In this document: positions 1-12,741 of the stretch, piece after piece
Layout: every line of letters starts with the position of its first letter
Position numbering within the stretch: the stretch's first letter is position 1
Assembly: GCA_001777915.1 (NCBI GenBank)
Contig: MFFN01000005.1
Location: 124,001 to 188,000 of the forward strand
DNA length: 64,000 nt
Source: Candidatus Edwardsbacteria bacterium RifOxyA12_full_54_48
Lineage (GTDB): Bacteria > Edwardsbacteria > AC1 > EtOH8
Direction of reading: 5' to 3'
Position numbers and translations under genes: made by a program
Notes under the pieces: generated by a model
What the model was told of the DNA's origin: nothing
Databases searched by the model: none
Seen by the model: only the letters and a program-made list of their open reading frames with translations

Positions 1-1098
1 AAAGTATCGGCCGCCCACGACAAGCTGGCCGGTATTGACGAGAGGATGCTGACCGCCGAGAGCGATATCGCCGGGATCAAGAAGCTGAAAGTCTCCGGGT
101 ACATCCAGACCCGCTTCGAGTACATCAACCATGACAAGATCGACACCGCCGCCGGCTCCACCGACAGCCGGACCGATTCCAGCTGGTTCTATGTCCGCCG
201 GGGCCGGGTGAAATTCGTTTATACTCCAGCCAAGACCTCCCAGTATTTTCTGTACTTTGATGGAGCCAAGGACAAGGTCTCTCTCAAGGAGGCCTGGATC
301 AAACTGAGCGAGCCTTGGACCGCCATGAAATTCAACCTGACCATGGGACAGATGAACTGGCCGTTTGGGGTGGAGATCGAACGTTCCTCAACGGTGCGTG
401 AAGTTCCGGAGCGGAGCATCATGTCCAATACCCTGTTCAAGGGTGAGCGGGATAGGGGCGTCAAGCTGAATTTCACCCCGGTCAAAAACCTTGACGTAGA
501 TCTGGGCGTTTACAACGGCTATGGAGTGGACAACTCCACCTTCACTTGGACCGATCCCACCAAGCCCAAGGATTTTGTGGGCCGGGTGCGCTACGACTTC
601 GGGCTGGTGGCCCTGAGCGGCTCCTGGTACGAGGGCCGGGAGAAGTTTTCCTCCAACAAGGATTCGGCCGACCATTACAAGGGCCGGATGGGCGGGACCC
701 TGGAGTTCTACCACCAGTTCCTGCCGGTGGGCGGCACCGGCCTGCTGGCCGAGGTGGTCAAGGGCGAGTCCCGGGAGAAGGAGGTCATGGGCTTCTATGT
801 GATGGGCATCCAGAACATCGGAGACAAGCTGGGGCTGGCCTTCCGGGTGGACAGCTATGACCCCAACATCTCATCCGACACCACCACCTTCAATACCACC
901 GCCGCGGCCTTGGAGTACGACCAGAAGTCCAACATCTCCCTGGCCGTCAACTACTGGTGGGATGCCGCCGTCCGGCTGACCCTGGCGGTGGACCGCACCC
1001 TGTACCATACCAACATGACCCTGGCCCAGGACCCCGATTCCCGGTATAAGAGCTACCAGGACGACAAGATCACCGCCCAGATGCAGATCAAATTCTAA
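1..1098 (+). CDS. Phosphate-selective porin (OprO/OprP-like), 5' truncated by window
   Basis: The reading frame is open to base 1, so the true start lies upstream; the first in-frame ATG at 46 is internal. The visible N-terminus is a short heptad-like stretch, followed by beta-strand sequence starting near VSGYIQTRFEY, with alternating aromatic/polar strands to the C-terminal residues KITAQMQIKF. A terminal aromatic is typical of outer-membrane beta-barrels. This matches the OprO/OprP (porin O and P) family, which lets phosphate or polyphosphate cross the outer membrane. It ends 28 nt before pstS and probably shares its transcript, which supports a phosphate role. Substrate specificity is inferred from context. 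An alternative is a general porin of the same fold. Confidence 0.8.
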   Translation, partial: KVSAAHDKLAGIDERMLTAESDIAGIKKLKVSGYIQTRFEYINHDKIDTAAGSTDSRTDSSWFYVRRGRVKFVYTPAKTSQYFLYFDGAKDKVSLKEAWIKLSEPWTAMKFNLTMGQMNWPFGVEIERSSTVREVPERSIMSNTLFKGERDRGVKLNFTPVKNLDVDLGVYNGYGVDNSTFTWTDPTKPKDFVGRVRYDFGLVALSGSWYEGREKFSSNKDSADHYKGRMGGTLEFYHQFLPVGGTGLLAEVVKGESREKEVMGFYVMGIQNIGDKLGLAFRVDSYDPNISSDTTTFNTTAAALEYDQKSNISLAVNYWWDAAVRLTLAVDRTLYHTNMTLAQDPDSRYKSYQDDKITAQMQIKF

Positions 1099-1126: not shown

Positions 1127-1960
1127 ATGAAAATCAAGACCATAATATTCTGGGCGTCGCTGGCGCTGGTGGTCATCACGGCCAGCAGTTTTGTGATGGC
1201 CGGGAAAGCCATCACCCTTAAGGGTTCCGATACCCTGCTGATGCTGGGGCAGAGATGGGCCGAATTGTACATGCAGAAGAACCCCGGGGTGGTGATCCAG
1301 GTGACCGGGGGCGGCTCGGGAGTGGGGATCGCCGCGCTGATCAACGGCTCCACTGACATCTGCCAGGCCTCCCGCAGCATGAAGGATTCCGAAAAGAAGA
1401 AACTGCGCGAGCGCTATTTCAACATGGGTACCGAGATCCCGGTGGCCAAGGACGGAGTAACCATCTATATCAACGAGAAAAACCCGGTGGACGAACTGAC
1501 CCTGGACCAGATCCGGGACATCTACACCGGCAAGACCACCAATTGGTCCCAGCTGGGCGGGCCCGATGCCAAGATAATCGTCTACGGGCGCGAGAACAGC
1601 TCCGGCACCTACGTCTTCTTCCGGGAATCGGCCATGAAGAATGCCGACTATACTTCCAGCATGCAGTCCCTGCCGGGGACCGCGGCGGTGGTCAATGCGG
1701 TGGCCAAGGATAAGTTCGGCATCGGCTACGGCGGGGCTGCCTACGCCAAGGGGGTCAAGGAAGTGGCCATCAAGACCGCCCAGGGCAGTTTCCGGCCCAC
1801 CACCGAGACCGTCAAGAGCGGACAATATCCCCTGTCCCGCGATCTTTACTGGTACCTGAGGGGCAAGCCCAGCGGCGAGATCAAGAAGATGATCGATTGG
1901 GTGCTTTCCCCCGAGGGCCAGGAAGTGGTTAAAAAGGTGGGATACTTTACCGTAAAATAA
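1127..1960 (+). CDS. pstS: Phosphate ABC transporter substrate-binding protein PstS
   Basis: Periplasmic phosphate-binding protein of 277 aa, the short PstS/PBP-like type. It has an N-terminal signal peptide (hydrophobic residues about 5-25) and then the ITLKGSDTLL start of the mature protein. Ligand-loop signatures include GGGSGVGIAAL, STDICQASR and RENSSGTYVFF, which in this family hydrogen-bond the phosphate oxygens. A strong ribosome-binding site (AAAGGAGAT) precedes the ATG. It follows the porin by 28 nt and precedes pstC, pstA, pstB and phoU. It delivers phosphate to the PstCA permease. Expression under phosphate limitation is expected from the family, but no Pho box was recognised in this window. 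Confidence 0.95.
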   Translation: MKIKTIIFWASLALVVITASSFVMAGKAITLKGSDTLLMLGQRWAELYMQKNPGVVIQVTGGGSGVGIAALINGSTDICQASRSMKDSEKKKLRERYFNMGTEIPVAKDGVTIYINEKNPVDELTLDQIRDIYTGKTTNWSQLGGPDAKIIVYGRENSSGTYVFFRESAMKNADYTSSMQSLPGTAAVVNAVAKDKFGIGYGGAAYAKGVKEVAIKTAQGSFRPTTETVKSGQYPLSRDLYWYLRGKPSGEIKKMIDWVLSPEGQEVVKKVGYFTVK

Positions 1961-2046: not shown

Positions 2047-2973
2047 ATGAGCCTTAAGAAAAGGAGATTCAAATACCTCACTGAGTCTCTGATCGAGGGA
2101 AACATCAAGATCACCGCCACCTTCGCCATCGTGGTGGTGTTCCTGATATTCATATTCATCATGAGGGAGTCGCTGCCGATATTCTTCAACAGCGAGGTGC
2201 AGCAGGAGATAACCTTCGGCCAATTCTTCAACAGCATCGCCTGGCGGCCGGTGTCGGATAATCCCCGGTTCTCGCTGTGGCCCATCATTCTGGGCAGCTT
2301 AAAGGTGACCCTGATCGCATTGTTTTTCGCCGTTCCGGTGGCGATCGCCGCCGCTCTTTATAGCTCGGAGTTCGCCGGGCGCCGTTTGAAGGAATTCATC
2401 AAGCCTACAGTGGAACTGCTGGCCGGGATCCCTTCGGTAGTGCTGGGCTTCTTTGCCCTGATGGTGATGGCCTCCTTTTTGAAAAACATCTTCGGCTGGG
2501 AGATCCGGCTCAATGCGGTCAATGCCGGGATCGCCCTGGGCTTTGCCGTCATTCCGTCCATCTATTCACTGGCCGAGGATGCCATCAATGCGGTCCCCCG
2601 GTCGTTCCGGGAGGCGGCCCTGGGGCTGGGGGCCTCCCCTTGGCAGACGGCCCTAAAAGTGGTTCTGCCGGCGGCCCTGCCCGGGGTGTCGGCAGCGGTA
2701 TTGTTCGGCATGGGACGGGCGGTGGGCGAAACCATGGTGGTGCTGATGGCGGCCGGGAATGCCCCGCTGTTCTCATTCAATCCTCTTAATTCCACCCGCA
2801 CCATGACCGCCACCATCGCGGCCGAGCTGGGAGAGGTGGTCTTCGGCAGCGGACACTACCATGCCCTGTTCTTCATCGGGCTGGTCCTGTTCCTGGTCAC
2901 CTTCGTGATCAACATGACCTCCTGGGCGCTGTTCGACGGGCTGATGAGCAAGCTTTACGGGGCCAAGAAATAG
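2047..2973 (+). CDS. pstC: Phosphate ABC transporter permease PstC
   Basis: Inner-membrane permease subunit of 308 aa with about six hydrophobic helices. The first is at residues 25-45. The BPD_transp_1 coupling region contains the EAA-type loop EAALGLGASPWQT (residues about 193-205), which contacts the PstB ATPase. The sequence GRAVGETMVVLMAAG is characteristic of PstC. It forms the channel with PstA. The ATG follows a weak ribosome-binding site (AAGGAATC). Only 7 nt separate it from pstA, so the two are almost certainly co-transcribed. Confidence 0.95.
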   Translation: MSLKKRRFKYLTESLIEGNIKITATFAIVVVFLIFIFIMRESLPIFFNSEVQQEITFGQFFNSIAWRPVSDNPRFSLWPIILGSLKVTLIALFFAVPVAIAAALYSSEFAGRRLKEFIKPTVELLAGIPSVVLGFFALMVMASFLKNIFGWEIRLNAVNAGIALGFAVIPSIYSLAEDAINAVPRSFREAALGLGASPWQTALKVVLPAALPGVSAAVLFGMGRAVGETMVVLMAAGNAPLFSFNPLNSTRTMTATIAAELGEVVFGSGHYHALFFIGLVLFLVTFVINMTSWALFDGLMSKLYGAKK

Positions 2974-2980
2974 GTGATAT

Positions 2981-3895
2981 ATGGCAAATAAGATGAACCT
3001 GCGAAATATAAAAGATAGGCTCAAAATTGGCCTGACCGGATCGGCGGTGCTGCTGATCCTGGCAATTCTGGCGGTTATCCTGGGCACGGTTATCATTGGC
3101 GGCTATAAAAGCATCAGTTGGGAATTTCTGACCCAAGCGCCCACCGAAGGCATGACCAAGGGCGGGATATTTCCGGCCATATTCGGGATGGTGTTCTCGC
3201 TGCTGCTGATGCTGATCGCGGTGGTGCCGGTAGGCGTGGCCACCGCAGTCTATTTACATGAATACGCCCGGCCCGGTTTCATCCTGACCAAGCTGATCCG
3301 CGGGGCGGTCAACAATCTGGCCGGCGTCCCCTCCATCGTCTTCGGCCTGTTCGGGCTGGGTTTTTTCATTCAGTTCATCGGCAGGGGGCTCGACCACTCG
3401 CTGGCACAGAACGGTCTGTTCGGGCAGCCATGCATACTTTGGGCCTCGCTGACCCTGGCCTTGATGAACCTGCCGATGATCATAGTGGCCACCGAGGAGG
3501 CATTAAGGGCCATTCCCCAGGCGGAACGGGCCGGAGCTTTGGCCCTGGGCGCCACCAAGTGGCAATCGATAAGGCATGTGGTGCTTCCCCAGGCCATCCC
3601 CGGCATCCTGACCGGAGTGGTGCTGGTCATCAGCCGGGGGGCCGGTGAGGTGGCTCCAATCATGTTCACCGGGGCGGCCTATTACCTGCCGTACCTGCCC
3701 AAGCTGCCCACCGACCAGTTCATGACCCTGGGCTACCACATATTCGTAATGACCACCCAATCGCCGGACATAGACGCCACGATGCCGATAGCCATGGGAG
3801 CCACCCTGGTACTATTGGCCCTTACCTTCTCGCTAAACATCATCGCCATAATCATAAGATCCCGCACCAGAAGCCAGCTTAGAAAGGGAAGATAA
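2981..3895 (+). CDS. pstA: Phosphate ABC transporter permease PstA
   Basis: Second permease subunit, 304 aa, with six predicted membrane helices beginning at residues 18-40. It carries the [15 protein letters not shown] segment and the coupling loop [14 protein letters not shown] typical of PstA, and [19 protein letters not shown] near the C-terminal helices. It pairs with PstC to move phosphate using ATP hydrolysis by PstB. It starts 7 nt after pstC and ends one base before the pstB start codon, the spacing expected for translational coupling. Confidence 0.95.
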
Positions 3896-3896
3896 T

Positions 3897-4664
3897 ATGC
3901 CGACCGGAAACAATCGTTTGGAGATAAAGGAATTCAACCTATACTATCACCGCACCAAGGCCCTGGAGGATATTTCGATGATGGTCCCCGAAAAGAAGGT
4001 GACCGCCATCATCGGGCCGTCGGGCTGCGGGAAGTCTACCCTATTGCGGTCAATAAACCGGATGAACGAAATGATTGACGGCGTGACGGCAGAGGGGAAG
4101 ATCCTGCTGGATGGGGAGGACATCTATCAAAAGGATATAGATGTGGTGGAGCTGAGACGCAAGGTGGGCATGGTGTTTCAAAGGCCCAATCCCTTTCCGA
4201 AATCTATATTCGAGAACGTGGCCTTCGGGGTAAGGATGGGCGATAACGTTCCGGCCAAGGAAAAATTGGAAGAGGTGGTGGAACGGTCATTGAAGGAGGC
4301 CGCCATCTGGGACGAGGTAAAGGACCGGCGGCACCGTTCGGCCATGGAGCTGTCCGGCGGGCAACAGCAGCGGGTATGCATCGCCCGCGCTTTGGCGGTC
4401 GAGCCGGAGGTCATCCTGATGGACGAGCCGGCCTCGGCCCTGGATCCCATTGCCACCGCCAAGATCGAAGAGCTTATATTCCGCCTCAAGGAAAAATATA
4501 CCATCGTCATCGTCACCCATAACATGCAACAGGCCGCCCGGGTGTCAGATTTCACCGCTTTTCTGATGCTGGGCAAACTGGTGGAATTCGGCCCCACCGA
4601 GAAGATGATGACCAATCCAGGCAACAAGCTGACCGAGGAATATATCACCGGAAGGTTCGGATGA
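3897..4664 (+). CDS. pstB: Phosphate ABC transporter ATP-binding protein PstB
   Basis: ATPase subunit of 255 aa, the usual family length. It shows Walker [10 protein letters not shown] (residues about 41-49), a Q-loop in [16 protein letters not shown], the ABC signature LSGGQQQR, Walker [14 protein letters not shown] and the H-loop histidine in IVTHNMQQA. The RPNPFPKSI motif is specific to PstB. It powers phosphate import through PstCA. It follows pstA by one base and precedes the phoU fusion gene by 42 nt. Confidence 0.97.
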
Positions 4665-4706: not shown

Positions 4707-5825
4707 ATGGAACAAACAAGACACGTCGACCGTGAGCTGGAGCATATAAAGGAAAAACTGCTTTTGATGGCGTCCAAGGCCGAGCATATCATCAGCCAGG
4801 CGGTGGAATCGCTTTTGCATAGGGACCTGGTCAAGGCCGAGCAGGTCATGGCCTTGGACAGGGAGATCGACAGGCTGGAGATAGAGATAGAGAACGATGC
4901 CATCTCGTTGATAGCCTGCCACCAGCCGGCCGCCAAAGATCTGAGACTGCTGATCGGGATAATAAAGATAAACAACGATATCGAGCGCATCGGCGACCAC
5001 GGAGTGAATATCGCCCAATGTACGCTGAAACTGGGCCAGGAGCCGCCGTTGAAGCCCCTGGTAGATATACCCCGGATGGCCCATTTGGCTGCTTCGATGC
5101 TCAGGGATAGCCTTGATAGCTTTGTCCATGAGGATGCGGAAAAGGCCCGTCAGGTTTGCGCCACCGACAGCCAGGTGGACCAGCTGAAGGATCAAACACT
5201 GAGGGAACTGATGACCTATATGTTCGAGAAGCCGAAAGCCATCAGCCGGGCCCTGGGCCTGATACTGATCAGCCGCAATCTGGAGCGGATAGCCGATCTG
5301 TCGACCAATATCAGTGAAGAGGTGATCTACATTTGCCAGGCCAAAGTCATCAAACATAATCAGGAAAAGATAAAAGTTCTGTTCATCTGCCGCCATAATG
5401 CGGCCCGCAGCCAGATGGCCGAGGCCCTGCTCAATCACCTGGCCGGGGATCGTTTTAAGGCCGATAGCGCCGGCCTGGAGCCGGGGGAACTGAATCCCTA
5501 TGCTATACGGGCCATGGCCGAAATGGGAATAGATATATCAGCTAAAAACACACAAAGCGTTTTTGATCTATACCTAAAGGGGCAACTGTATAATTATGTA
5601 ATAACGGTGTGTGATATAAAAGAAGAAGATAAATGCCCGATCTTTCCCGGCATAGCCCAGAGCCTGCAATGGAGTTTTCCGGACCCCGCGTCATTTGCCG
5701 GCAGCGATCAGGAGAAGCTGAAAAGGACCGTTGAGGTCAGGGACAGCATAAAAAAAGCCATCGAAGATTTCATCAAACCGATCAATAAACCAAACCATCA
5801 TGATACGGGAGGAGTTTCCGAGTAG
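4707..5825 (+). CDS. PhoU fused to a low-MW phosphatase/arsenate reductase (ArsC-like) domain
   Basis: This 372-aa protein joins two families in one continuous frame. Residues about 1-217 are PhoU, with two three-helix repeats each carrying an ERIGDH/ERIADL-type metal-binding motif; PhoU restrains Pst uptake and Pho signalling. Residues about 222-355 match the LMW-phosphatase-type arsenate reductases. They have the P-loop C228-x5-R234 (CRHNAARS), a [10 protein letters not shown] pair giving C302 and C310, and the FPDP loop with likely general acid D326. All residues expected for redox arsenate reduction are present, though phosphotyrosine phosphatase activity is possible. The protein is much longer than a stand-alone PhoU (about 220 aa). 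It ends the pst operon, so it may detoxify arsenate that enters by the phosphate route. The domain calls are firm; the physiology is inferred. Confidence 0.9.
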
Positions 5826-6366: not shown

Positions 6367-8088
6367 ATGAAAAAAATATTTACATTGCTAATCTTTGCGG
6401 CTAACCTTTGCTTAGCGCAAGATATTATGATCAGTAATCCCACTGAACCCTGCGGCCCGGTAAGGCAGGACTACTGGCTCAGCAAGAAAGCGGACATCGG
6501 GCAACGAACAAGGGCCGGAGCGGAAACCGAGAAAGCTGTACCGCGTTCGAAAGCTTTTACGGCTGCTGCCCTGGACAGCTACGATTTCGGCACCAACGTG
6601 CGGGTTAACGACAACCCAGCCGGCACCAGCTTTGAAAGCGTGTACAGCTCTGGCGGGCACAGCATGGCTGCAAGGGGCGATACAGTGTACCTGGCCTGGC
6701 GTTCTGACCGGAACCCGCGCAGCACAGTATACTTTGACAAAAGCACCGACGGCGGGCAAACCTGGGGAACTGACGTGCGTATAACCGACAGTGACAGCGG
6801 GGCGATAATGCCAGCTTTGGCAGTGGGTAAAGACGGCACCATATACGTGAGCTGGACTGACTACCGTGATCCCAGCGGGTATAGGCATATATACTTTGCC
6901 AAGAGTACTAACGGAGGAACCAGCTTTTTGCCCAGCGTGAGGGTAAGCGCCGAGAGCGGGGAGATGCCGCAACAAAAGAGCAGTATTGCGGTAAATGACA
7001 GCGGGTATGTATTTATAGCTTACGAGGACTGGCGGAATTATACTGCAACAGCGATGGATATATATTGCTCGCGTAGTACAAATGGCGGCAGTAGCTTTGA
7101 ACCTGCGGTGCGGGTTGATGATTGTACAGATAGCGTAGATCAATGGTTGCCAAGCATAGCGGTAAAAGATAGTATTGTTTTTATATCGTGGACTGATTTT
7201 AGGAATACTTCTGATTTATATAGTGACATATATTTTGCAAGGAGTATTGATAATGGAGAATCTTACGAAACCAACATCTTGGTTAATGATACAATCGGTC
7301 AAGTGAATAGGTCACAGTGGAGTTCGAGTATAGCAGTTGATGAATATATATATATAGGTTTTGCAGATAACCGTGACGGTAATTATGATGTTTACTATGC
7401 CAAGAGCAATGACGGCGGGTTAACGTTTACCACGCCCAACCTGAACCTGATCGATGCTGCTGGCCAACCATACGCTCAAGGGTATCCCAGTCTTGCATGC
7501 GACGACAGCGGCGGGGTGTATTGCGCCTGGGAGGATATACGCAATGACTATAACAATGCCCGACAAATTTACTTTGGGTTCAGCAAAAATTATGGTGATA
7601 GCTTTAGTTTTAATATCCATGTAGATGACAGGCCATTGGACGACAGCGCCTGGTTGTTTACACCCACTATTTGCGTTAACAAGGCAGGCAAAGTATTTTC
7701 AGCCTGGGACGACGGAAGGAATAATATTGGCGGGACAAAATATGATATCTATACGACGGCCGGAACGTTTGTCAATGGTGTAGCGGGACAACCGATAGAA
7801 AACAACCCGAATCCAGTATTTCGTATTCAGTGTTACCCTAACCCTTTCAACAATAGAACTACCGTTGATTATCAAATACCAAAAACGGGTATGGTGACCC
7901 TTAAAGTTTATAACATATCCGGGCAGGTCGTCAGCGTGCTGGTAAATAACATACAGCAAGGTGGGCCGCACAGCGTCAAATGGGACGGCAAAGATGATCA
8001 GGGCCGGGAAATATCAAGCGGCATTTACTTCGCGCGCCTAATGACTGATAACAGTACCCGAACAAATAAAATAACCCTAATAAGATAA
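6367..8088 (+). CDS. Secreted sialidase-like/BNR-repeat protein with FlgD-like (T9SS-type) C-terminal domain
   Basis: Exported protein of 573 aa. The signal peptide covers residues 1-18 (MKKIF...CLAQ). Residues about 60-465 form a repeated beta-propeller-like pattern with Asp-box motifs of the S-x-D-x-G-x-T-W type (STDGGQTW, STNGGTSF, STNGGSSF, SNDGGLTF) and recurring VSWTDYRD/AYEDWRN segments. These folds occur in sialidases and in exo-alpha-sialidase-like adhesins. No sialidase catalytic Arg triad could be assigned, so enzymatic activity is not claimed. The last 100 residues contain YPNPF and end in GIYFARL...KITLIR, the FlgD Ig-like/type IX sorting domain. It starts the island and is followed 12 nt later by a second large protein with the same tail. 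Part of the gene (about 7150-7400) is visibly more AT-rich than the rest. Confidence 0.8.
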   Translation: MKKIFTLLIFAANLCLAQDIMISNPTEPCGPVRQDYWLSKKADIGQRTRAGAETEKAVPRSKAFTAAALDSYDFGTNVRVNDNPAGTSFESVYSSGGHSMAARGDTVYLAWRSDRNPRSTVYFDKSTDGGQTWGTDVRITDSDSGAIMPALAVGKDGTIYVSWTDYRDPSGYRHIYFAKSTNGGTSFLPSVRVSAESGEMPQQKSSIAVNDSGYVFIAYEDWRNYTATAMDIYCSRSTNGGSSFEPAVRVDDCTDSVDQWLPSIAVKDSIVFISWTDFRNTSDLYSDIYFARSIDNGESYETNILVNDTIGQVNRSQWSSSIAVDEYIYIGFADNRDGNYDVYYAKSNDGGLTFTTPNLNLIDAAGQPYAQGYPSLACDDSGGVYCAWEDIRNDYNNARQIYFGFSKNYGDSFSFNIHVDDRPLDDSAWLFTPTICVNKAGKVFSAWDDGRNNIGGTKYDIYTTAGTFVNGVAGQPIENNPNPVFRIQCYPNPFNNRTTVDYQIPKTGMVTLKVYNISGQVVSVLVNNIQQGGPHSVKWDGKDDQGREISSGIYFARLMTDNSTRTNKITLIR

Positions 8089-8100
8089 GGGAACACCGCA

Positions 8101-11100
8101 ATGAAAATCAGAAGTTTGCTGATTTTAGCAATCGCAGTCCTGTGGCCGTTAACGGCAACTGCGCAGATAAACTTTCCCATCGGGGTCTGGAGCGGCTGGG
8201 TGGACAACGATAAGGCGGAAACCGTTTACCGGGGCGCGGATACCTGCGGCATAAATATAATAAATTTATGCGCCGCGCCGGAGGAACTGCAGAACAGATT
8301 AAGTCTATTGAAAAGCATCGGCCAGAAAGCAATGATCACGGCGGCCTGGGCCGGCGCCGGGGACAGCTCTGTAACCCGGCACAACCTGATGAGGTTGTCC
8401 GGCGGAGTGTACCGTCGGCAGGAAGACAACAACACTTATTACGGCCGGGCAGACCGTACCGGGTATTATAAAAGATTCTGGCTGCCTGAACCCGATTCCC
8501 AGCTTTTGACCCGGGTGGGCCACTACGACGGTAATGCCTGGGCTTGCACCACAGCCGATACCGGCTACGCCCTGTTTTGGGACGCCGAATCGTCGGCCTG
8601 GCACCCCAACAGTAGCGATTATGTAAAGTACCGCAATCACAATTGTCGCGAGCCTTGGCAGAACATGCCGTGGTATTATGAATCCGAAAGAAGCTACACG
8701 GTCAGGTTCGGTTTGAAGTACGTTGGGACCAACGACGGTCAGCCGGTCTGCCGCATTGGCGTCGTGTCCATAAACGAGTATTTGCCCATCCGGCGAAGTG
8801 ACAGCGTGATGGTAACCCTGACCACAGACAGCTTTCCCGGCTCGAACATTTATAAGGCTTTCAATGTCAAATTCACCCGGTCCAGGACCGATTCCACCCA
8901 ATGGCGGGACTTTGTTGTGTACACTTATGGCAGCAAGGATCTATATGTGGATTACGTGCAGGTGCAGGATGCAGTGTATGATTCGTTGGCAAGTCAAGAA
9001 TACGACATACCGATTGCTAACATTGCTAATACATATTCCGGCCTCACGGCACCTAACCGGGAAGCCGTATTCCGTTATTACCTTAGCGATGAGCCGTTCA
9101 GAAGCCAATTTGAGTCAACCAGATTAATGCTGCGCCGTCTTGAACAATCAGCACAAGACAACGGCACCGCCACCGGCATGGCGCAAGTGGCTCCTTGCGA
9201 GCCCGGTTCCTATGGCGAGGATACGGCCATTTACTACGACTACATCAATGCCACCAGCCCCACCGAGCTTTCCATAAACCTGCTGCCCGTATTCGGCAAC
9301 GGGGTCAGCCTGCCCCAAACCCGCACTCCGGTGGATTCCGGGTTTGGCCTGCAGAAACAATTCGACACCATGACAGTGGCCCTGGCGGCAGCCAAGCACG
9401 CGGCAGCCAATGCTGGTATACCTTTATGGGTGCAAACCCAAAGCTTTGGGGACTACAAAGTAAACCCGGACAGTTCACTGGATACTACAATTCTGGGCGA
9501 AGGGGTCTGGCGCATACCCACGCCCCGGGAATTATCTTGTCTGGTAAACCTGTCATTATGTTACGGGGCCACTGGTATCTATTATTACGTCTACGTGGAC
9601 GGACAAGTAGAATATGCCGCCGGAGGCCAGCAGTGGTACCAAATGGGCCTGGCCGACCACACGGGCGCGCACCGGGAGCCGCAATGGTCGGCGGTTAAAA
9701 ATCTAAATACCCAAATAAAAACCCTTGCCCCTGGCTTGTTGAATCTCGCTTGGGAAAACGCCTACAGAAGCGTTGCGCCGACCGGCAGTTTTATAACGGC
9801 CATTTCGGACTCATTTGTCCAAGTTGGCTTATTCCATGCGAAGGAAAATGCCAGCGACAAGTATTTTTACCTGGTCAACCGGCACTGCCTGCCTACCGAC
9901 ACTTTAACCGTAACTGTCAACGTCAGCAATGCCGAACCGTTCTTCATCTGCGATGTGCTTACCGGCCAGGCAGTGTCTCTGCAGCTTGCCGCCGGAACCT
10001 ATGTGCCATTTAGCTATAAACTGCAACCGGGCGAGGGCAGACTGTTCCGCATAGTACCTTTCACGGCGCAGATAAAGATAAACCAAAATGCAACTTACAC
10101 TAATTTCAGGTTTATACAAGTGGACGACCCGGCCAGTTCCAGCCTGCATTCGGTGGATTCGGTTCAAATAACGCAGAAATATTACACCAAAACCGTGGAA
10201 GATACTTCGGCCCGACCGGATTTCGGCACATATTTCTGGGAGACGAATACCTCGGCTTGGTTGCCTTACTCCACATCGTTCATTCAATATCTTGCTAATT
10301 CTCTAAACAATAACTCCAACATCTTCGATCTACAATTCAAGATTGGCGGCGGCAAGATACTGACCCCAAAATATTCCTCGCAGATATTCTTCAACGATGT
10401 TTCCCCTGTGAATGGCGCTATCACGATCAACAACAATGCTAACTATGCGAACACTCAAACTTTAAACGTGAAACTGTCTGGAACTGATCTGTTCCCAGGT
10501 TTGTCCCAAATGCGCTTTGCCGAAGCGCCGTTCGGTAACAATTCCGGCTATGTTAACCTAGTTAAAAACGGTTGCTTTGAAGATACCACCGACTGGATAA
10601 AACAAGCGGCAAATTTGGATAGCGGTTATGCCGTTATCAGCCGAAGCTCGGTATTGGGCGTGCCGAACTATGAGGATTACGGAAATTATATAGCCCAGGA
10701 AGTCCCCATGCCTGAAGCCGGACAGCTTGTCAGATTAAAGGCCGACCTTTATGGCAAGATAGATGAAATCCCGGCGATTCAGGTATATGGCATCTACAAC
10801 GATACTTTAGAACCAAGGATAAAATATTACCTGAATAAAAACATTTATGATGCCGAGTTCTTGTTTGCCGGGAATACGGTTCTAAACGACACATTCACAT
10901 TTATTCCGCCCACAGACGGCGCTATTGCCAAAATGATGGTTCTAATAGGCTATCCCGGTATTATGGCAGTCCAAGTACCAGCCCTTGCCACCAGCATTCC
11001 GCCGCAGCCTGTTATTTTGCATTCAAATATTTATGTCGATAACATCTGCCTTGAGCCGGTGGAATTGAAGACCGGAGCTCAGCCTGATGCGATTCCTCCG

Positions 11101-12741
11101 ATAGGTTCTTATATTTACGACGGATGGGATTACGCAGATACCAATTATTCGCTAAACTGCCAATTGTCGGACAGCGATGGCACCAAAAGAGTTTATATGC
11201 AGCTTAGTGATCTGGCCGGCAATATAAGTCTCTGCCCCGGCTGGTCCGATGATATTGTCCTGGATATGACTAAACCGCTTGTAGGGGTAACCAGCCCGGT
11301 AAACATGAGCTACGTAAATGGGACAATAAGTATAAGGGGGCATGCCTGGGACCTTCACTTTGCCAATTGGGTTTTGGAGTTCAAAAAAAATAACACGGAA
11401 ACATGGGGACAACTGAGCAGCGGGATAACCCCGATACATTATAAATTTCCCCAAACATTGTGCCTTTGGAATACTGAAACGATAAGCGATGGTCTTTATC
11501 TTTTAAGGCAGACTGGATATGACCTTGCCGGTAATTGTAAGGCGGAAACGGTCTATGTCTATGTTGCCAATAATACATTACCCCGTGAAGCAATTACCGC
11601 TGACTTTGCCTTATTCAACAGTCTGCCAGTGGACGGCACGGTTGATGCTTTCGGCAATATCTATGCTACCGATACCCAGGACGATAAAATATGGAAATTC
11701 TCGCCGGATGGTGATTCCCTGTTATGCTTCGGGTATAAATATACCTGCACCGATACCTTGGGCCTTAACCATCCAAAGGGTATTGCGGTTGACGATTCGG
11801 GCTATATCTGGATCACCGATTGCTACCAGTCAAAGGTTAAAAAATATGACGGGCAGGGAAATTATATCAACACCATCGGCCAGCATGGAAACAAGGCCGG
11901 CGAGTTCAACCAACCCACCGGGATTGCCGTTAAAGATAGTTATATCTATGTTTCAGACCATTTGAATAACCGGGTGCAGGTATTCAATAAAGCCGGTGGT
12001 TTTGTAAGACAGTTTGGTGATAACATACTCAAACAACCGGCGGGAATAGCTATACGGGAAGATGGCGATGGTTATTTGATCTACGTCTCAGATTCCAAAA
12101 ATTACAGGGTTGCGATATTTGACACTTTGGGCAATATGGTAGACAGCTTGGGTGCTGGTTTGGATTTAAGAGAACCTTGGGATATCTGCTTTGACTACAA
12201 TAATAATCTTTATATTGCCGACGTATACAACAACCGGGTTGTCCAATTGGATGCCTGGGGCAATAAACTGCTTACTTTCGGCATACAGGGTCAGGAAGCC
12301 GGTGAATTCAAACTGCCCCAGGGCTTGGCCATAAGCCCTGATGGCAAATATGTGTATGTCATAGACACCCACAACGATCGGATACAGAGGTTCAAGATGT
12401 TCATCGATATCGGCACAGGTGGGCCGCAACTGGTAGGCCAGAGAAAGAAGGCACTAATGCCGCTAACTTATATTCTCGGCCAAAGCTATCCGAATCCTTG
12501 GAAACAAACGACAAGCATTAATTACCAGATTGCCAATGCTGGAAATGTAAGCCTAAAGGTCTACAATACTTTGGGCCAGGTGGTAAAAACTATGGTCAAC
12601 CAAAATCATTTACCAGGCTATTACAGCGTCAAATGGGACGGCAAGGATGACAACGATAGGAAGGTATCTTCGGGTATCTATTTCTACCGTATAGTATCAG
12701 GCGAGTTTAGCGATACTAAAAAAATGATTGTCCTGAAGTAA
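8101..12741 (+). CDS. Large secreted protein: GH-like N-terminal region, NHL repeats, FlgD-like (T9SS-type) C-terminal domain
   Basis: 1546 aa. A signal peptide (residues 1-21, ending TATAQ) is followed by a region to about residue 650 that reads like a TIM-barrel glycoside hydrolase or DUF4091-like fold: FPIGVWSGW, the YLSDEP segment with E331 as a candidate acid, and a YYYVYVDG strand. Residues about 780-1160 look like bacterial Ig-like/carbohydrate-binding modules. Residues about 1174-1436 hold NHL repeats (GIAVDDSGYIWITD, GIAVKDSYIYVSDHLNNRVQ and others), forming a six-blade-type propeller. Residues about 1457-1546 are a FlgD Ig-like sorting domain (SYPNPW, GIYFYRIVSG, terminal VLK). It probably forms an operon with the upstream gene. 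The substrate is unknown; the catalytic assignment is tentative, while the NHL and sorting domains are clear. Confidence 0.78.
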   Translation: MKIRSLLILAIAVLWPLTATAQINFPIGVWSGWVDNDKAETVYRGADTCGINIINLCAAPEELQNRLSLLKSIGQKAMITAAWAGAGDSSVTRHNLMRLSGGVYRRQEDNNTYYGRADRTGYYKRFWLPEPDSQLLTRVGHYDGNAWACTTADTGYALFWDAESSAWHPNSSDYVKYRNHNCREPWQNMPWYYESERSYTVRFGLKYVGTNDGQPVCRIGVVSINEYLPIRRSDSVMVTLTTDSFPGSNIYKAFNVKFTRSRTDSTQWRDFVVYTYGSKDLYVDYVQVQDAVYDSLASQEYDIPIANIANTYSGLTAPNREAVFRYYLSDEPFRSQFESTRLMLRRLEQSAQDNGTATGMAQVAPCEPGSYGEDTAIYYDYINATSPTELSINLLPVFGNGVSLPQTRTPVDSGFGLQKQFDTMTVALAAAKHAAANAGIPLWVQTQSFGDYKVNPDSSLDTTILGEGVWRIPTPRELSCLVNLSLCYGATGIYYYVYVDGQVEYAAGGQQWYQMGLADHTGAHREPQWSAVKNLNTQIKTLAPGLLNLAWENAYRSVAPTGSFITAISDSFVQVGLFHAKENASDKYFYLVNRHCLPTDTLTVTVNVSNAEPFFICDVLTGQAVSLQLAAGTYVPFSYKLQPGEGRLFRIVPFTAQIKINQNATYTNFRFIQVDDPASSSLHSVDSVQITQKYYTKTVEDTSARPDFGTYFWETNTSAWLPYSTSFIQYLANSLNNNSNIFDLQFKIGGGKILTPKYSSQIFFNDVSPVNGAITINNNANYANTQTLNVKLSGTDLFPGLSQMRFAEAPFGNNSGYVNLVKNGCFEDTTDWIKQAANLDSGYAVISRSSVLGVPNYEDYGNYIAQEVPMPEAGQLVRLKADLYGKIDEIPAIQVYGIYNDTLEPRIKYYLNKNIYDAEFLFAGNTVLNDTFTFIPPTDGAIAKMMVLIGYPGIMAVQVPALATSIPPQPVILHSNIYVDNICLEPVELKTGAQPDAIPPIGSYIYDGWDYADTNYSLNCQLSDSDGTKRVYMQLSDLAGNISLCPGWSDDIVLDMTKPLVGVTSPVNMSYVNGTISIRGHAWDLHFANWVLEFKKNNTETWGQLSSGITPIHYKFPQTLCLWNTETISDGLYLLRQTGYDLAGNCKAETVYVYVANNTLPREAITADFALFNSLPVDGTVDAFGNIYATDTQDDKIWKFSPDGDSLLCFGYKYTCTDTLGLNHPKGIAVDDSGYIWITDCYQSKVKKYDGQGNYINTIGQHGNKAGEFNQPTGIAVKDSYIYVSDHLNNRVQVFNKAGGFVRQFGDNILKQPAGIAIREDGDGYLIYVSDSKNYRVAIFDTLGNMVDSLGAGLDLREPWDICFDYNNNLYIADVYNNRVVQLDAWGNKLLTFGIQGQEAGEFKLPQGLAISPDGKYVYVIDTHNDRIQRFKMFIDIGTGGPQLVGQRKKALMPLTYILGQSYPNPWKQTTSINYQIANAGNVSLKVYNTLGQVVKTMVNQNHLPGYYSVKWDGKDDNDRKVSSGIYFYRIVSGEFSDTKKMIVLK

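Follow-up and report, generated by a model that had tools for sequence, protein, structure and literature searches.

A single reading frame joins PhoU to an arsenate reductase-like domain at the end of a pst operon in an Edwardsbacteria genome

The last gene of a pst operon in Candidatus Edwardsbacteria bacterium RifOxyA12_full_54_48 encodes, in one open frame, a full PhoU protein followed by an ArsC-like domain with its predicted catalytic residues in place. The gene lies in a 64,000-nucleotide stretch of contig MFFN01000005.1 (the window; positions given without a locus name refer to it). PhoU acts with the phosphate importer Pst, which cannot fully exclude arsenate, so that phosphate-starved cells risk poisoning. 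Thioredoxin-type ArsC enzymes reduce arsenate by means of three cysteines, and Acr3 is an arsenite exporter. On balance, we consider it probable, though well short of assured, that the gene product has two functions: a Pst-associated PhoU would carry, on a flexible linker of about 10 residues, a predicted thioredoxin-type arsenate reductase that clears arsenate entering via Pst. We favour this reading because of the domain scores, the predicted structure, the invariant cysteines, the low dN/dS, the fact that this is the only thioredoxin-type ArsC of the genome, and the proximity of relatives to acr3, arsR and pst genes.

Results

A PhoU-ArsC frame closes the pst operon

The operon and the parts of the fusion gene are as follows.

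46..1098, + strand, phosphate-selective porin (OprO/OprP-like); PF07396, 27.5 bits (cut-off 20.9)
1127..1960, + strand, pstS, phosphate-binding protein; PF12849, 136.8 bits
2047..2973, + strand, pstC permease; PF00528, syntenic with congeners
2981..3895, + strand, pstA permease; PF00528, syntenic with congeners
3897..4664, + strand, pstB ATPase; PF00005, 116.5 bits
4707..5825, + strand, phoU-arsC fusion gene; single open frame of 372 residues
4707..5357, + strand, PhoU part, residues 1-217
5340..5369, + strand, linker, about residues 212-221, predicted flexible (mean pLDDT 56 for residues 211-220)
5358..5822, + strand, ArsC/LMWPc domain, residues 218-372 (core 223-355)
5363..5368, + strand, deletion scar, the remaining GGAAAA copy; 13 bp of the congeners are missing just before 5363
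5388..5408, + strand, predicted catalytic loop C228-RHNAA-R234 (Cys-x5-Arg), read from the sequence
5610..5636, + strand, putative redox cysteine pair C302 and C310, from the sequence and an alignment of relatives
5682..5684, + strand, putative general-acid aspartate D326 of the DP motif, from the sequence and alignments
5813..5814, + strand, junction of a second deletion (160 bp), from alignment with congeners

The pst setting proposed in an earlier note on this DNA is borne out by the porin, pstS, pstC, pstA and pstB genes directly upstream, and the fusion is the last gene of that operon and its only PhoU product. The porin gene begins upstream of the window and encodes 440 residues in the genome (full gene, L023 7777-9099). 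A promoter and terminator scan of the junction region gave nothing better than shuffled sequences. Just 3' of the operon, positions 6367-8088 encode a large secreted-type protein whose C-terminus has FlgD-like and Por secretion-tail matches, and a second large secreted-type protein (8101-12741) has a similar C-terminal end, as judged by eye.

The same note had read the frame as PhoU over roughly the first 217 residues and an ArsC-like domain after it, a division that matches to TIGR02135, TIGR02691 and PF01451 within the 372-residue frame confirm. Residues 6-213 score 212.8 bits against TIGR02135, above the curated cut-off of 130.25, and the half contains two PF01895 repeats (155.2 bits). It forms two three-helix bundles with metal motifs (E-x3-D) that read ERIGD and ERIAD in the sequence. 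The score, the two repeats with their motifs and the pstSCAB genes directly upstream all place this half in TIGR02135. The model of the PhoU half superposes on Aquifex aeolicus PhoU (1t72) with a TM score of 0.96 at 41% identity; both are full two-repeat proteins, and here PhoU comes last after pstSCAB as in the TIGR02135 family. The protein differs from that family by its complete C-terminal enzyme domain.

That domain matches the thioredoxin-type arsenate reductase model TIGR02691 over residues 224-355 (106.8 bits, E 9e-31). Since the score is below the curated cut-off of 174.3, we do not assign it to this equivalog; the separate ArsC proteins of the congeners, at 107.6-116.4 bits, are also under the cut-off. 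PF01451 (LMWPc), a family that also takes in arsenate reductases, is matched with 55.5 bits (cut-off 23.2). C228-x5-R234, C302, C310 and D326 are all present exactly as first described, and in an alignment of 17 relatives C228, N231, R234, S235, C302 and C310 are invariant. We describe the domain as a branch of ArsC that is related to the TIGR02691 equivalog, lies outside it and probably works in the same way.

The best structural match is the arsenate-bound ArsC2 of Deinococcus indicus (8p5n; TM 0.91, 40% identity to the modelled half), which has the catalytic loop, the cysteine pair and the DP motif in common with the fusion, although its cysteine pair is one residue closer together. In its published account, D. 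indicus ArsC2 (8p5n/8p6m, PMC10483234) appears as a stand-alone enzyme of an arsRBC operon. The pI258 and Bacillus subtilis enzymes (1jl3, 1ljl; about 36% identity) share the Cys-x5-Arg loop, the second and third cysteines and the DP aspartate. C82 and C89 of pI258 align with C302 and C310, which are one residue further apart, while the second P-loop cysteine of these enzymes, C15, is an alanine in the fusion. The AlphaFold2 model of the whole protein has a mean pLDDT of 84 and a pTM of 0.59 and does not fix the placement of the two halves relative to each other.

Both halves are under purifying selection. For PhoU, dN/dS is about 0.07 in pairs that include the fusion genome, similar to the value among congeners. 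The ArsC core gives 0.11-0.18 in such pairs versus 0.06-0.09 between congeners, and because of this somewhat higher ratio a slight relaxation of the ArsC core after fusion is possible.

Two deletions reshaped the end of the operon

The genus sample comprises four species, the fusion genome (G000) and G001, G002 and G003, all of which were searched. Only in G000 is the 4707-5825 frame covered by one continuous match among these genomes. The other three have the same operon with phoU and arsC as separate genes: PhoU has 221 residues and ends in TAA or TGA, and the ATG of ArsC follows one base later. In pairwise alignments with the congeners, G000 lacks exactly 13 bp at this junction. In G001, the segment absent from G000 is GGAAAAATAAAAT, followed by another GGAAAA. 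With it go the phoU stop and the arsC ATG, and ArsC comes to lie in the PhoU frame. Since GGAAAA repeats bound the missing segment, the loss fits slippage between these 6-bp direct repeats. Around this junction, no ATG, GTG or TTG start for a free ArsC is left in the G000 sequence.

A second deletion, of 160 bp, lies just before the arsC stop and took out a small third gene, of which the last codons of the fusion (VSE and the stop) are a remnant. In G001 and G002 this ORF of 54-57 residues, which has no Pfam match, overlaps the arsC stop; in G003 it contains an in-frame TAG (L026, about 9240-9400), and in G000 it is deleted. Judging from these four sequences, the small ORF seems to be decaying within the genus. 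In the six other genomes of the family, which make up the rest of the phylum sample (10 genomes, one family), PhoU is unfused wherever it was found. By these comparisons, the fusion is a very young, one-species event that joined an already abutting gene pair.

Intact fusions are rare and degenerate ones occur in another phylum

How widespread the fusion might be had been left open; among about 395 genomes, we saw the intact form once, in G000. Among the matches listed, neither a protein search of 290 genomes nor a profile of the fused proteins run against 386 genomes gave a PhoU-ArsC frame beyond G000 and three further genomes, G181, G294 and G349. A search of 72,556 plasmids found no fusion, and no plasmid record covered 80% of the query. 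The three further cases are PhoU-ArsC-like proteins from three families of another phylum.

L174 2319-3404; L035 5357-6697; L175 1618-2709: PhoU with an ArsC-like half, in pst operons of another phylum, catalytic cysteine lost

These proteins share the domain order of the G000 fusion, and all are encoded beside pstS. As to whether such fusions always sit in pst operons, which the earlier note had proposed to check, G000 and two of the three are in full operons; the third is only beside pstS. Their C-terminal halves align with ArsC but, unlike G000, have lost both the catalytic cysteine and the redox pair; that of G294 scores 23.1 bits against LMWPc (cut-off 23.2). The three are remote homologues, about 25-32% identical across the matched region, and they probably go back to a separate event, older than the G000 fusion. 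The cysteine-less halves may be pseudoenzyme sensors. In G349, homology to ArsC ends after about residue 285, and histidine-kinase-like sequence follows the break in another frame (L175, about 2500-3193), which suggests a local deletion or a misassembly.

Long frames in G203, G234, G246, G271, G283, G158, G037 and G104 were rejected as fusions, since each is either PhoU or ArsC, alone or joined to some other domain, or a frame over-extended in GC-rich sequence. The 437-residue frame of G271 (L036 1551-2864) combines an intact ArsC domain with a C-terminal part that looks, by eye, like a universal stress protein.

arsC recurs in and beside pst operons

We counted gene neighbourhoods for the best 80 named relatives of the fused ArsC, a set that is not a census. 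acr3 lies within 6 kb in 26 of the 80, and arsR is nearby in 26. Nine have a PhoU match in their flanks, which in one case is weak (22% identity). In five, arsC is inside a same-strand pst operon, where it precedes or follows phoU or stands between pstS and pstC. The gene order is pstS-arsC-pstC-pstA-pstB-phoU in G134 and phoU-arsC-phoB-phoR in G015; pstS and arsC are adjacent in G055, and G007, from the same family as G000, has arsC between pstC and pstA. The phoU stop overlaps the arsC start in three other lineages (L103, L152 and G015). Because the positions within pst operons differ, we infer that arsC was recruited to them repeatedly and that this is not one inherited arrangement.

Other arsenic and phosphate genes of the fusion genome

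An arsR-acr3-rhodanese-arsM-like cluster lacking arsC is present on contig C4 (about 401.4-404.3 kb); the arsM label rests on a generic methyltransferase match and a Cys-rich N-terminus. The genome has no thioredoxin-type ArsC besides the fused domain, as the sole other LMWPc protein is YrdC/Sua5-like with a C-terminal LMWPc domain. The latter protein has 366 residues, is encoded on contig C5 roughly 27 kb 5' of the fusion (L001 829-1929) and keeps the motif CTGNTCRS. At C4:603210 the genome also encodes a 116-residue PF03960 protein, a remote relative of the ArsC/Spx type.

Besides the fusion, the genome has an unfused second PhoU (C4:639297). The second pst operon, also on C4 (L171), has two adjacent PstB genes (608-1372 and 1495-2250). 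By eye, the first has FALPVP in place of FQRPNP in the Q-loop, and the second LPLDQ in place of the ABC signature LSGGQ; with such complementary alterations, the pair may form a heterodimeric ATPase.

Discussion

Under the two-function reading, phosphate starvation would induce Pst and, alongside it, the fusion, and arsenate would be imported too. C228 would attack the arsenate, C302 and C310 would relay the disulfide to thioredoxin, and the arsenite would then leave through Acr3 or be methylated by the ArsM-like enzyme of the C4 cluster. Being fused would set a 1:1 ratio of ArsC to PhoU and keep the enzyme near the importer. The existence of one PhoU-ArsC protein suggests, short of proof, that phosphate import is coupled to arsenate detoxification. 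That arsenate reduction is tied to the Pst importer, as raised in the earlier note, stands as far as gene linkage goes, given the recurrent arsC genes in or beside pst operons and the presence of acr3 and an arsM-like gene with no other thioredoxin-type arsC in the genome. It is weakened as a claim about the fusion as an evolved device, because the fusion goes back to a 13-bp deletion in one species, in a gene pair that was coupled beforehand. Further points against the two-function reading are the missed TIGR02691 cut-off, the raised dN/dS of the ArsC core, the single genome with an intact fusion and the case of Halomonas GFAJ-1, where a gene annotated arsC is reported to have had no role in arsenate resistance (PMC5930303), so that the annotation by itself does not prove function.

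The joined genes may equally work just as the split ones do, the fusion having no function of its own and being liable to be lost again. We give this an even chance; it overlaps with the two-function reading and the two estimates are not exclusive, as the enzyme can be real and its joining without consequence. Such a neutral accident would fit a fusion found in one of four congeners, a joining for which slippage between 6-bp repeats can account, the additional loss of 160 bp at this end of the operon and the failure of the intact fusion to recur in the genomes and plasmids searched. The continued conservation of both halves and the separate origin of PhoU-ArsC-like fusions in another phylum speak against it. 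That the two genes are in truth separate, as in all three congeners, and were joined by an assembly or sequencing error is hardly credible: a base-call error would not typically remove 13 bp cleanly between direct repeats outside any homopolymer, the syntenic genes nearby are intact, and the assembly (9 contigs) is 100% complete with 0.12% contamination.

As for what the C-terminal domain does, the earlier note had also considered that it might dephosphorylate a Pho component at the transporter, for example PhoR or PhoB, as a phosphotyrosine or other phosphatase. The fold is indeed common to low-molecular-weight phosphatases, with PF01451 above its cut-off and the Wzb and AmsI structures matching the model at TM 0.66-0.74. 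The arsenate reductases match far better, the redox pair is retained, relatives adjoin acr3 and arsR, and the NCBIfam phosphatase models, including the Wzb-type protein-tyrosine-phosphatase, give no match to the domain at E up to 1; this activity now seems very improbable. We regard as distinctly unlikely, if less so, that the pocket serves as an oxyanion sensor, binding phosphate or arsenate and altering the action of PhoU on Pst and PhoR, with catalysis secondary. The three PhoU proteins of the other phylum would argue for this, as they keep an ArsC-like fold without the catalytic cysteine and the chemistry would thus be dispensable; they are, however, distant, the catalytic residues are intact in G000, and the model leaves the domain orientation unfixed. 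A bolder proposal, which we rate as rather unlikely, is an importer with a built-in arsenate gate, whose ArsC half would meet arsenate leaving Pst and either destroy it or signal PhoU to throttle uptake; the cysteine-free versions, descending from the same solution, would act purely as sensors.

Arsenic islands that carry pst and ars genes (PMC3834237) likewise co-locate phosphate uptake and arsenic genes; in the passages that treat them, they are gene clusters, with no fused PhoU-ArsC protein described. Nor did searches of open-licence papers on PhoU, arsC and pst linkage and fusions, assessed mostly from titles and abstracts, turn up a report of such a fusion. An intact PhoU with an intact ArsC is a new combination of two known domain families and not a new kind of system. 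The repeated presence of arsC in pst operons, and its fusion with PhoU on two or more occasions (one intact, one degenerate), point to the Pho regulator being functionally linked with arsenate handling, which is open to direct test. The genus, moreover, has clean before and after states in which the effect, if any, of joining two coupled genes can be examined.
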